DNA of 64,000 nt. It comes from Rhodopseudomonas faecalis (lineage in GTDB: Bacteria > Pseudomonadota > Alphaproteobacteria > Rhizobiales > Xanthobacteraceae). The notes under the pieces are model-generated. The model saw nothing but the letters and a program-made list of their open reading frames with translations, was not told the origin of the DNA and did no database searches. A program made the position numbers and the translations under genes. The stretch covers positions 248,001-312,000 of the forward strand of contig NZ_QJTI01000002.1 of NCBI RefSeq assembly GCF_003217325.1, written 5' to 3'. Shown here one piece after another: positions 41,803 to 44,740 of this stretch; position 1 is the first letter of the stretch, and the number at the start of each line of letters is the position of its first letter.

Positions 41803-43266
41803 ATGGAATTGCGCCTCTACGATACGCTGAGCCGCGAGAAGCGTGCGTTCACGCCGCTCGATCCGACTCTGGTCCGCATGTATGTGTGCGGCCCCACGGT
41901 TTACGACTTCGCCCATATCGGCAATGCGCGGCCGGTGATCGTGTTCGACGTGCTGTTTCGGCTGCTGCGCCATCTGTACGGCGCCGAGCACGTCAAATAT
42001 GTGCGCAACATCACCGACGTCGATGACAAGATCAACGACCGCGCCGCGCGCGACTATCCCGGGCTGCCGCTGAACGAGGCGATCCGCAAGGTCACCGAAC
42101 AGACCGAGCGCCAGTTTCATGACGACGTCGATGCGCTCGGCTGCTTGCGGCCGACGGTCGAGCCGCGCGCCACCGAACATATCGATGAAATGCGCGCCAT
42201 CATCGAAAAGCTGATCGCGGGCGGCTTTGCCTATGTCGAGCAGGACCACGTGCTGTTCTCGCCGGGCGCGATGAATGCCGCAAACGGCGGCTTGCCGCGC
42301 TATGGCACGCTCGCCAACCGCTCGCTTGATGAGATGATCGCCGGCGCGCGCGTCGATGTCGCGCCCTACAAGCGCGACGCCACCGACTTCGTGCTGTGGA
42401 AGCCGTCCAAGCCGGGCGAGCCGTCCTGGCCGTCGCCGGGCGGCATCAGCACCCCGGGTCGGCCCGGCTGGCACATCGAATGCTCGGCGATGTCATGGAA
42501 GCATCTTGGCGAGCGTTTCGACATTCATGGCGGCGGCATCGATCTGGTGTTTCCGCATCATGAGAACGAGGTGGCGCAATCGTGCTGCGCGTTCCATACG
42601 CCGCGCATGGCCGAAACCTGGATGCACAACGGCTTTTTGCAGGTCGAAGGCGAGAAGATGTCGAAGAGCCTCGGCAACTTCGTCACCATTCGCGAGCTGC
42701 TGGCGACCGACAAATTTGGCGGCCGCTCCTGGCCCGGCGCGGTGCTGCGCCTGACCATGCTCAAAACCCATTATCGCTCGCCGATCGACTGGACCGCGCA
42801 GGCGCTGCAGGAATCGCTCGACAACATCGCGTCGTGGAATGACGCGGTGACGCCGCACGGCCTTGATGAAGCCGGCTCCTATCCGCCGCCGGACGAGGTG
42901 ATCGCGCCGCTCGCTGACGATCTCAATTTCTCGCGCGCGATTGCCGAGATGCATCAATGGGCCAAGGCCGCGCGCGCGGGCGATTATCTGGCCGCCAAGA
43001 AGCTGGCTGGTGCCGCTGATTTTCTCGGGCTGCAGCGCGTGGCCTGGGATCAGGCGGTGCAGTCCTGTGCGGCGGACGCCGAAATTGATGATGCCTCACG
43101 CGCTAAGTTCGACGCGCTGGTGGCGGCCCGCGCCGCCGCGCGCGCCAGCAAGAATTGGGCGGAGTCCGACCGCATCCGCGACGAACTCGCCGCGCTCGGC
43201 GTGGTGCTGAAGGACGGCAAGGACGCCGACGGCAAACCCGTCACCACCTGGGAGATCGCGCGATGA
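41803..43266 (+). CDS. cysS: Cysteinyl-tRNA synthetase
   Basis: 487 aa from ATG 41803; the long upstream in-frame extension to 41608 lacks family residues. Class I synthetase motifs: zinc Cys in [18 protein letters not shown] (HIGH site), [21 protein letters not shown], and [12 protein letters not shown] (KMSKS). The last codons read WEIAR and the stop overlaps a following ATG. The 16-base junction GGAGATCGCGCGATGA here recurs twice downstream. Confidence 0.96.
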
Positions 43267-43282
43267 CCGACACCATCCGCTG

Positions 43283-43379
43283 CGTCATTCCGGGGCGCAC
43301 GCGAAGCGTGCGAACCCGGAATCTCGCTGTCTCGGGATTCCGGGTCTGCGCTGCTGGCGCAGCGCATCCCGGAATGACG
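43283..43379. repeat. Inverted repeat of the CGTCATTCCGGG family
   Basis: CGTCATTCCGGGGCGC at the left pairs with GCATCCCGGAATGACG at the right; internal arms GCACGCGAAGCGTGC and CTGCGCTGCTGGCGCAG form further hairpins. A short frame across it (43263-43430) looks like a by-product of the repeat rather than a gene. Confidence 0.85.
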
Positions 43380-43478
43380 CACGAGAGTTTGTTCGATGCC
43401 GCGACGGCAAGAACGGAGATCGCGCGATGATCATCGTCCTTTGGGGTGGTGTGACGGCGCACGTCCGAGCCGCTGCTT

Positions 43479-43556
43479 CGTCATTGCGAGGAGCGCAGCG
43501 ACGAAGCAATCCATGCACGCTTGGATCTGGATTGCTTCGCTGCGCTCGCAATGACG
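43479..43556. repeat. Inverted repeat of the TCATTGCGAGGAGCG family, copy 2
   Basis: CGTCATTGCGAGGAGCGCAG pairs with CTGCGCTCGCAATGACGG around the arm GAAGCAATCCA...TGGATTGCTTC. It is about 80% identical to the copy at 27101-27179. The frame at 43427-43615 runs through it and is probably not a real gene. Confidence 0.85.
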
Positions 43557-43611
43557 GGAACACCATGTCGTCGCGCGCGCAGCTGCGCTCAGCTCTTTGG
43601 GAGATCGCACG

Positions 43612-44079
43612 ATGACGCCGCAGAGGGACCAACCCTCTCCCCCTGCGGGAGAGGGTGCCCTGCGCCGAAGGCGCGGGGCGGGTGAGGGGGCGCGATCGAC
43701 CGTGGTCGCTCGGCAGCTTCGTTCGCGTATCACAGACGCTGAACGCAAGCTGTGGCTGGCGCTGAAGGATCGCAGGTTTGAGAACTATAAGTTCCGTCGT
43801 CAGGTCCCGATTGGCCCCTACGTGGCTGATTTCGTCTGCTTCGAGTTGTGTCTGATCATCGAAGTCGATGGTGGCCAGCACGCCGACTGTGCTCGTGATC
43901 TGGTGCGCGACGAGTGGTTCGCCAGCAACGAATTCAGAGTCGTCCGTTATTGGAATAACGACGTCCTGCAGAATCTGCAGGGGGTTCTGGAAAATCTGGT
44001 GACCGTCATGAGCGGTCCCCCTCACCCGGCGGCTCGCTTGCGCTCGCCGCCACCCTCTCCCGCAGGGGGAGAGGGTTAA
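43612..44079 (+). CDS. DUF559 endonuclease-like protein framed by inverted repeats
   Basis: 155 aa from ATG 43612. Residues about 30-130 are a DUF559 domain of the Vsr/PD-(D/E)XK nuclease type: ITDAERKLWLALKDRR, FRRQVPIGPYVADFVCFE, LIIEVDGGQH with the acidic active-site residues, and RVVRYWNNDVLQNL. Both ends of the frame are written through the flanking inverted repeats, giving Pro/Gly/Glu-rich tails ending in PSPAGGEG. The function of DUF559 proteins is not established; some relate to very-short-patch repair enzymes. Confidence 0.8.
   Translation: MTPQRDQPSPPAGEGALRRRRGAGEGARSTVVARQLRSRITDAERKLWLALKDRRFENYKFRRQVPIGPYVADFVCFELCLIIEVDGGQHADCARDLVRDEWFASNEFRVVRYWNNDVLQNLQGVLENLVTVMSGPPHPAARLRSPPPSPAGGEG
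43631..43690 (+). repeat. Left terminal inverted repeat of the DUF559 unit
   Basis: The outer 27 bases (43631-43657, beginning AACCCTCTCC, itself a hairpin CCCTCTCCC...GGGAGAGGG) are the exact reverse complement of 44051-44077. The inner GGGTGAGGGGG (43680-43690) matches the reverse complement of 44017-44027. The variable middle holds a GCGCCGAAGGCGC hairpin. Confidence 0.92.
44017..44077 (-). repeat. Right terminal inverted repeat of the DUF559 unit
   Basis: Reverse-complement partner of 43631-43690: CCCCCTCACCC at the inner end, a GGCGGCTCGCTTGCGCTCGCC hairpin in the middle, and a 27-base outer part matching the left end without mismatch. The last codons and stop region of the DUF559 gene lie inside it. 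Confidence 0.92.
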
Positions 44080-44093
44080 GAGAGACAATCGCC

Positions 44094-44225
44094 ATGACAG
44101 AAGACAAGCGCAGCGCGCGTCCAGACACCCCATTCCCAAAACACTGGCTGTACTACATCGCGATCAAGATCGTGCTGCTGGCGGGCGCCACCGCGCTGGT
44201 GCTCAAACTCTACGGATTGTGGTGA
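44094..44225 (+). CDS. Small single-pass membrane protein
   Basis: 43 aa, MTEDKRSARPDTPFPKHWLY followed by a hydrophobic helix (YIAIKIVLLAGATALVLKLYGLW). The stop overlaps the GTG at 44222 that may start the GNAT gene, supporting a real coupled gene. No function known. Confidence 0.6.
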   Translation: MTEDKRSARPDTPFPKHWLYYIAIKIVLLAGATALVLKLYGLW

Positions 44226-44230
44226 GCGCG

Positions 44231-44740
44231 ATGGGACAGTCGATGCCGAAGCCGGCGCTGCGGCCCTATCTGCCCGCCGACACCGAAATCCTGGCCAATA
44301 TTTTCGCCGCCAGCATCAAGGAGCTGACCGGCGACGATTATAGCGAGTCGCAGCAGGAAGCCTGGGCTGCGGCGATCGATGACGAAGCCGCGTTCGGCAA
44401 GCGCCTTTCTTCGCAGCTCACGCTGATTGCGACGCTGCAAGGCGCGCCGGTCGGGTTCGCCTCGCTGAAGGGCGCCGATGTGATCGACCTGCTGTATGTC
44501 CATCCCGGCGCAGTCGGGCAGGGCGTTGCCAGCGCGCTGATCGACGCGCTGGAAAAGCTCGCCGGCGCCCGCGGCGCCAACAGCCTGACCGTCGATGCCA
44601 GCGACACCGCGCAGAGCTTTTTCGCCAAGCGCGGCTACAACCCGACGCAGCGCAATTCGGTTTCCTTGAACGGCGAATGGCTCGCCAACACCACAATGCA
44701 GAAAACGCTGGCGACGCCAGCCGCAGGAGCGACACCATGA
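44231..44740 (+). CDS. GNAT family N-acetyltransferase
   Basis: 169 aa from ATG 44231 (GTG 44222 and 44219 are alternatives). Acetyl-CoA fold motifs: LRPYLPADTEILANIFAASI, the strand DLLYVHPGAVGQGVASALIDALEKLAG (the Q/R-x-x-G-x-G/A loop as GQGVAS), and a FFAKRGYNPTQRNS C-terminus. The substrate is unknown. Its stop overlaps the cimA start by ATGA. Confidence 0.86.
   Translation: MGQSMPKPALRPYLPADTEILANIFAASIKELTGDDYSESQQEAWAAAIDDEAAFGKRLSSQLTLIATLQGAPVGFASLKGADVIDLLYVHPGAVGQGVASALIDALEKLAGARGANSLTVDASDTAQSFFAKRGYNPTQRNSVSLNGEWLANTTMQKTLATPAAGATP

Follow-up and report, generated by a model that had tools for sequence, protein, structure and literature searches.

DUF559 genes are associated with inverted pairs of hairpin repeats, and this association is beyond reasonable doubt. 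The case described here is a small unit of the 64-kb window (the whole stretch of DNA analysed), in which a single DUF559 gene is enclosed between two repeats that we identified as being of the BoxC/PIT/TM type. As the pairing recurs in many bacteria, the small DUF559 enzyme is likely the partner of a previously partnerless repeat. Judging from sequence comparisons, the unit is probably (we estimate the probability at roughly 60%) a member of a widespread REP-nuclease system, which would follow a RAYT-like logic with an unrelated, Vsr-like enzyme and whose function would be to mobilise the repeats.

The DUF559 unit between cysS and cimA

The features of the unit are listed in Table 1. Its outermost arms (43631-43657 and 44051-44077) are inverted, 27/27 nt complementary (100%) and spaced by 393 nt, and the inner 11-base block GGGTGAGGGGG of the left side pairs with CCCCCTCACCC on the right. 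Two consecutive hairpins are predicted at each unit end (single-stranded DNA folding, each alone; z -4.2 and -3.4), none of 200 shuffles being equally stable. With up to 3 mismatches the hairpin motif occurs twice in the window, once per unit end, for 0.08 copies expected. The encoded protein matches the PF04480 (DUF559) profile with an E-value of 4.1e-35 (120 bits, for a cut-off of 20.6). These results confirm what the initial annotation had described, i.e. a unit with exactly inverted 27-base ends and an inner 11-base match, a hairpin at each end, and a DUF559 gene whose frame runs into both repeats. The candidate starts of this frame are TTG 43597, in frame and upstream, and ATG 43612; GTG 43702, just inside the left repeat, is an alternative start.

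Table 1. Location of the repeats, gene and domain of the DUF559 unit (positions in the window)
Feature	Position	Strand	Remark
Whole unit	43631..44077	.	between cysS and small gene/GNAT/cimA
Left repeat, REP/TM type	43631..43691	+	hairpin 1 43632-43656, hairpin 2 43657-43679
G-rich tail of left repeat, GGGTGAGGGGG	43680-43690	+	directed into gene
Right repeat, inverted	44017..44077	-	tail 44017-44027, hairpin 2 44028-44051, hairpin 1 44052-44076
DUF559 gene	43612..44079	+	N- and C-terminal ends encoded by repeat sequence
DUF559 (PF04480) nuclease domain	43696..44010	+	profile match

A search of Rfam with positions 43200-44300 (E up to 1) gave no match above the gathering score and four sub-threshold ones, one of which, Corio-PBP (43601-43665, minus strand), overlaps the left repeat. 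PADLOC returned no match. In plasmid DNA the only matches were partial ones from Azospirillum, which come from 8 records and cover no more than 22% of the query. Two CGTC-class repeat pairs (43283-43379 and 43479-43556) are located between cysS and the DUF559 unit; they are of the types ATTCCGGGG, which resembles Br-REP2, and ATTGCGAGG. The end of cysS plus the next start (GGAGATCGCGCGATGA, 43251-43266) is repeated downstream at 43415-43430 and 43600-43615, which looks as if repeat insertions had duplicated or re-used the cysS end.

The structure model of the window protein has a mean pLDDT of 78. Its best Foldseek match is 3hrl (NGO0050, E 6.9e-9), followed by the homing endonuclease I-Bth0305I (3r3p, 6.1e-4) and, more weakly, by Vsr (1vsr, 0.07); chance rows with E above 0.1 in a related search were set aside. 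Residues E44, D73, E84, D86 and H90 are invariant across 57 sequences, and by analogy with Vsr we take the catalytic residues to be among them. DUF559 domains are under purifying selection, with a median dN/dS of 0.08-0.13 in 8 families. The window protein is a DUF559 protein, with a predicted Vsr-like nuclease fold and a conserved acidic core.

Distribution of inverted pairs around DUF559 genes

A gene was considered to lie within an inverted pair when the 250 bp upstream of its DUF559 domain, aligned to the reverse complement of the 300 bp downstream, reached a score of 18. Among the 16 genomes of the genus, 58 of the 61 stand-alone DUF559 genes (bits >95) are found within such pairs, one of the 58 being kept although its score comes from a contig-end duplication; three genes (L074, L082 and L083) are below the threshold. 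Of the 88 DUF559 matches of the genus, 15 that were weaker or belonged to fused or long frames fell outside this test. The 61 genes do not count as independent cases, since they occupy 10 orthologous sites; a passing member exists at every one of these sites. Controls gave a clear result: fused DUF559 paralogues of the genus passed in 0/12 cases, random positions in 0/4400 (eleven 20-kb stretches from five complete genomes), positions of the same loci away from the gene in 1/1603 (200/250-bp flanks), and the GNAT loci of the window neighbourhood in 0/16, one of which (L107) was scored at a mid-locus fallback position. The fused paralogues, with frames of about 400 aa, form a second DUF559 lineage (L004, L084-L094) that is found throughout the genus, without repeat flanks in the 12 loci tested.

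The pairing extends well beyond the genus. In 114 genomes of the class, taken from different families, 39 of the 58 DUF559 genes above 90 bits pass (the window genome is not counted) and 19 are below the threshold; 21 of the 29 class genomes with tested genes have a passing gene and 8 have none. For named genomes, 59 of 78 DUF559 loci pass and 19 do not, compared with 0/316 controls, a truncated locus (L285) and an N-run artefact (L250) having been dropped before counting. According to record titles, the passing loci belong to alpha-, beta-, gamma- and deltaproteobacteria, Chloroflexi, a planctomycete and an Aminicenantes bacterium. The initial annotation had proposed to ask whether DUF559 genes lie inside such pairs far more often than by chance; they do so at all three levels. 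Of five loci from the plasmid collection (two E. coli, Neisseria, Azospirillum, Sinorhizobium) only one passes, although inspection by eye shows similar repeats close to every one of the five genes; those of E. coli, Neisseria and one Azospirillum do not form a clean inverted pair.

The kind of repeat was then compared with the kind of gene, using expressions for the repeat classes that were written after the arms were known. On this basis 56/61 DUF559 genes of the genus are in TM-only (triplex-type) pairs, and 2/61 in pairs mixed with a second signature. GIY-YIG genes other than UvrC are in CGTC-type pairs in 14 cases out of 28 (L180-L209), with 1 in another pair and 13 in none, and the two UvrC genes are in none; this set corresponds to the 30 of 40 GIY-YIG matches that had loci. 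Y1 genes of the genus, whose matches are weak (21-31 bits), lie in GTAG-type pairs in 4/6 cases (L326, L328, L329, L332), with 1 other and 1 none, a seventh locus (L327) being too short and left out. As RAYT with GTAG repeats is a known system, the Y1 genes serve as a positive control.

Hairpins and DUF559 genes also occur in the same genomes. With a search pattern that was likewise written after the arms were known, five hairpins or more are found in 19 of the 30 class genomes with a strong DUF559 gene versus 2 of the 84 others, 12 of which carry weak DUF559 matches (Fisher 4.5e-12). The corresponding counts for class genomes of at least 3 Mb are 16/23 and 1/28. With a limit of two hairpins they become 23/30 and 4/84, the limit of five being fairer because a flanked gene itself supplies two; 7/30 genomes have fewer than two hairpins despite a strong DUF559 gene. 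Repeat similarity follows protein similarity (103 units, Mantel r 0.26, 0/999 permutations), a correlation which may be due in part to shared host descent.

Repeat architecture and turnover

The architecture of the repeats was analysed on 106 diverse units, which had been selected because they contain a pair; 103 of them have a hairpin on each side. An arm consists of a stem, a linker of mostly 2-3 nt (TTG, TTA, TCG, TCA, CTG) and a G-rich tail. Longer linkers of 9-45 nt occur in 59 of the 150 mirror-positive arms, 53 of these 59 containing complementary stretches of at least 4 bp. In 61 units the two tails are both directed inward and in 7 both outward, and the rest are mixed, ambiguous or without clear tail; 4 units have a mirror tail on neither side.

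The tail mirrors the purine arm: for the 148 asymmetric arms the mean mirror score is 0.833, versus 0.646 (sd 0.011) after permutation (z 16.6, 0/1000). The mirror fits better than a direct repeat in 96 of these arms, worse in 8 and equally well in 44. Their direct-repeat score is also slightly above the permuted one (0.654 vs 0.618, z 3.5, 1/1000); among the 70 immediate-tail arms it is at the permuted level (916 of 2000 permutations reach it), and the mirror score is reached by 0/2000. A purine-arm G is opposite G in 1083/1098 positions and an A opposite A or T in 259/261, these counts being a selected table because the arms were taken at a mirror score of at least 0.75. Read from the sequences, the stem-tail code is that of an antiparallel purine-motif triplex which would be folded from one strand, and it is this mirror code that places the repeat in the BoxC/PIT/TM kind. 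The window arms are of the C/G-rich triplex type, without GTAG tag. Both have a mirror score of 1.00, and since their stem core is symmetric their own tail cannot separate a mirror from a direct repeat. The initial annotation had treated one 27-base end as the repeat; we find instead a family of variants with a common hairpin-plus-mirror-tail architecture.

The G-rich strand could also act as a G-quadruplex rather than as a triplex, given that strands of the GGGAGAGGGTTAGGGTGAGGGG type contain four G runs. A quadruplex needs neither a tail that mirrors the stem, as the asymmetric stems have, nor the retention of A positions as A or T that is seen in arms of good mirror score, and the CD and NMR data published on the single strand from E. 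coli point to a triplex (PMC4666352). We consider this reading very unlikely.

BoxC/PIT/TM intrastrand-triplex motifs were described by Holder et al. (PMC4666352), who reported 23 copies in E. coli MG1655 and motifs in more than 260 genomes, with a search that allowed loops of 1-6 nt. The window repeats exceed this limit, as their second loop contains a further hairpin of 23-24 nt. In the available text of that study the E. coli single strand formed a triplex in vitro and no stable triplex in vivo, the motifs were abundant and tied to genome instability, no mobility genes or functions were found beside them, and their mechanism and origin were left open. In E. coli K-12 MG1655 the DUF559 gene is ycjD. 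A triplex motif begins 168 bp after ycjD, before fabI (locus L216, 2477-3033 for gene plus motif); its letters are identical to those of the published number 9, and also 16, 19 and 22, and from its position we infer that the ycjD-fabI copy is number 9. DNA matches to ycjD are present in 3365 of 5426 E. coli genomes. One strain without ycjD was opened and gave no clean empty site at sapF-ycjD-fabI, because an efflux-pump cluster adjoins fabI just upstream and sapF lies outside the stretch. Among the top matches of long lists in open-licence PubMed Central, whose scope does not extend to the original BoxC/PIT studies, no published link of DUF559 to these repeats was found. RIME1 of Rhizobium was considered, and the same source gave no paper on it.

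The repeats are not restricted to the gene-bearing units. The window genome (G000; 4.07 Mb in 62 contigs) has 4 DUF559 genes, 3 of which are in inverted pairs, each pair with its own repeat variant, as well as gene-free pairs of about 107 bp. The repeat pattern (up to 3 mismatches) has 43 matches on one strand of this genome and 49 on the other (forward and reverse, respectively), most of which are the same palindromic places, versus 1 + 1 for a control pattern; the pairs seen there are related, and not identical, to the window's own variant. More generally, gene-free pairs with the ends of DUF559 units are dispersed and differ between strains, including in genomes without Y1 match. No Y1_Tnp (RAYT-type) match is found in the window genome, and 10 of the 16 genus genomes overall have none. 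These ten include G007 and G010, where repeats of family D are most numerous.

Family D illustrates this dispersion. In 12 gene-free pairs of G007 the second stem varies, and the ends are those of the DUF559 unit of this family; control patterns have 0 copies in all 16 genomes. An orthologous intergenic site could be followed by its left flank in 15/16 genomes. G007, G010 and G011 have a D pair there, a single repeat is left in G004 and G012, the contig ends at a D repeat in G001, and other repeats are found instead in other genomes; the right flank was not found in G001, G009 and G014. A clean correspondence of one gene to one repeat count was expected for family D across the genus and was not found: G001, G008 and G009 have many D repeats without D gene, and G011 and G006 have the gene and few repeats.

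The unit of the window is itself not fixed, a point that the initial annotation had proposed to check at the cysS-cimA locus. The cysS-GNAT-cimA site is occupied in 2/16 genus genomes (G000 and G002); of the other 14, 13 have other repeat kinds between the flanks and one (L107) is on a cut contig. No target-site duplication could be established at this site, which is rearranged by other repeats. The gap between glyQ and glyS (L048, L050, L057, L069; names confirmed by Pfam in one genome, G012, L067) shows an alternation of two DUF559 families with different repeats, and several of eight loci retain solo repeats of the other family. Our sequence comparisons revealed no transposition, excision or cleavage, nor any conversion of gene-free to gene-bearing repeats, the gene-free pairs resembling an uninterrupted form. 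As the 61 genus genes fall in 10 orthologous sites, the DUF559 gene is for the most part vertically inherited while gene-free pairs turn over.

Interpretation and comparison with known REP systems

The elements of the proposed system would be the following. Two putative triplex-forming REPs, paired in inverted orientation, enclose in their loop the gene for a single-domain, Vsr-like DUF559 nuclease, and the gene-free pairs (REPIN-like, about 100-150 bp) would be dispersed non-autonomous relatives of this gene-bearing unit. The nuclease would bind the hairpin-triplex on single-stranded DNA, e.g. on the lagging-strand template during synthesis, and nick at the repeat, so that repeat pairs are copied or excised, its own gene rarely so. 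Binding, cutting and movement by the nuclease are what we infer from these comparisons; the mechanism is favoured by a gene that lies within the loop of its pair, by the common ends and by pairs that turn over, and the numbers of D repeats not following the D gene, the vertical inheritance of the genes and the lack of a target duplication in our comparisons speak against a simple version of it. The basis of the proposal in the sequences consists of the association and its breadth, the shared ends, the co-occurrence, the repeat-protein correlation, the conserved predicted fold with its invariant acidic residues, the purifying selection and the lack of Y1 matches in pair-rich genomes. It is tentative, at somewhat less than even odds, that this forms a separate class of repeat propagation, where a Vsr-like nuclease recognises an intrastrand triplex and propagates triplex-ended pairs. 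The initial annotation had seen here a REP-plus-nuclease pair, with the REP/RAYT logic and another enzyme; the association beyond chance argues for it, and the interpretation as a whole is partly supported. It had also suggested that this could be an undescribed repeat-mobilising system; the repeat itself is already published as BoxC/PIT/TM.

Other explanations can account for part of these observations. The nuclease could spread by a homing-like process, in which it cuts gene-free repeats that are then repaired from a gene-bearing copy through the homology of the repeat arms. In the fold comparison 3hrl is indeed followed by the homing endonuclease I-Bth0305I and, at a greater distance, by Vsr; GIY-YIG, a homing family too, shows a parallel repeat pattern; and at glyQ-glyS two DUF559 families share one site with remnants of each other's repeats. 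Such a process does not fill its targets, given that a genome contains tens of gene-free repeats and a few DUF559 genes (in most cases a single one for each site family), and it leaves the multiplication of gene-free pairs unexplained; we consider it unlikely. The enzyme could alternatively be a resident repair or structure enzyme that removes triplexes at replication forks, the repeats regulating its gene and spreading by some other cause. The strong purifying selection and vertical inheritance fit such a housekeeping role, as does the report that a DUF559 protein of Caulobacter, VsrA (CCNA_02930), is a Vsr-like mismatch-repair enzyme (PMC12907096). Against it, DUF559 is missing from many genomes (any match in 42/114 class genomes), the gene sits inside inverted pairs of family-specific sequence, and the window unit is absent from 14/16 genus genomes, so that we find this role quite improbable. 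A passive association, where repeats lie beside DUF559 genes by chance or for expression and the enzyme is unrelated to them, might be imagined from the several repeat kinds that are common in these intergenic regions. The controls at random positions and on fused paralogues, together with a pairing that holds across phyla, largely refute this last reading, which is hardly credible.

If the tentative separate class is real, REP systems would have originated in bacteria on three occasions or more (Y1/GTAG, DUF559/triplex and GIY-YIG/CGTC), each with an unrelated nuclease fold, and BoxC/PIT/TM and CGTC repeats would no longer be orphans. Two published puzzles, triplex motifs without mobility function and CGTC REPs without transposase, gain a testable answer, as each can now be linked to a nuclease family. 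For DUF559 this link consists of position, breadth and co-occurrence, for GIY-YIG so far of position in one genus. DUF559, including ycjD of E. coli K-12, would gain a concrete candidate substrate.

Several known systems share some of these features. I-Bth0305I and E. coli Vsr have the same catalytic-domain fold as that predicted here, and neither is known to be coupled to REPs. Caulobacter VsrA has the same domain family; its study deals with its role in mismatch repair, and the main text contains neither "palindrom" nor "inverted repeat" (PMC12907096). BoxC/PIT/TM elements (PMC4666352) resemble the present repeats by their hairpin and mirror G-rich tail, their TTA or CCG/TCG linker, their intergenic location and the presence of some inverted pairs, and differ in being described, in the available text, without a gene partner; linkers longer than theirs are found in the long-linker arms counted above, whereas other DUF559 families and E. 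coli have the short linker. CGTC REPs (PMC3733652), reported in the available text without dedicated transposase, and Br-REP2 (PMC5082802) are alphaproteobacterial REPs that form inverted dimers as here, but their sequence class differs from that of the DUF559 repeats, and in the genus studied here they flank GIY-YIG genes. The nearest parallel in layout is the REPIN-RAYT system. RAYTs are characterized by low gene copy number and vertical inheritance, and as in DUF559 units their gene lies between inverted REPs, with gene-free inverted pairs dispersed in the genome. The two differ in the enzyme, HUH/Y1 for RAYT and a predicted Vsr-like nuclease for DUF559, and in the repeats, which are GTAG-tagged in REPIN-RAYT and carry no such tag in the DUF559 system.
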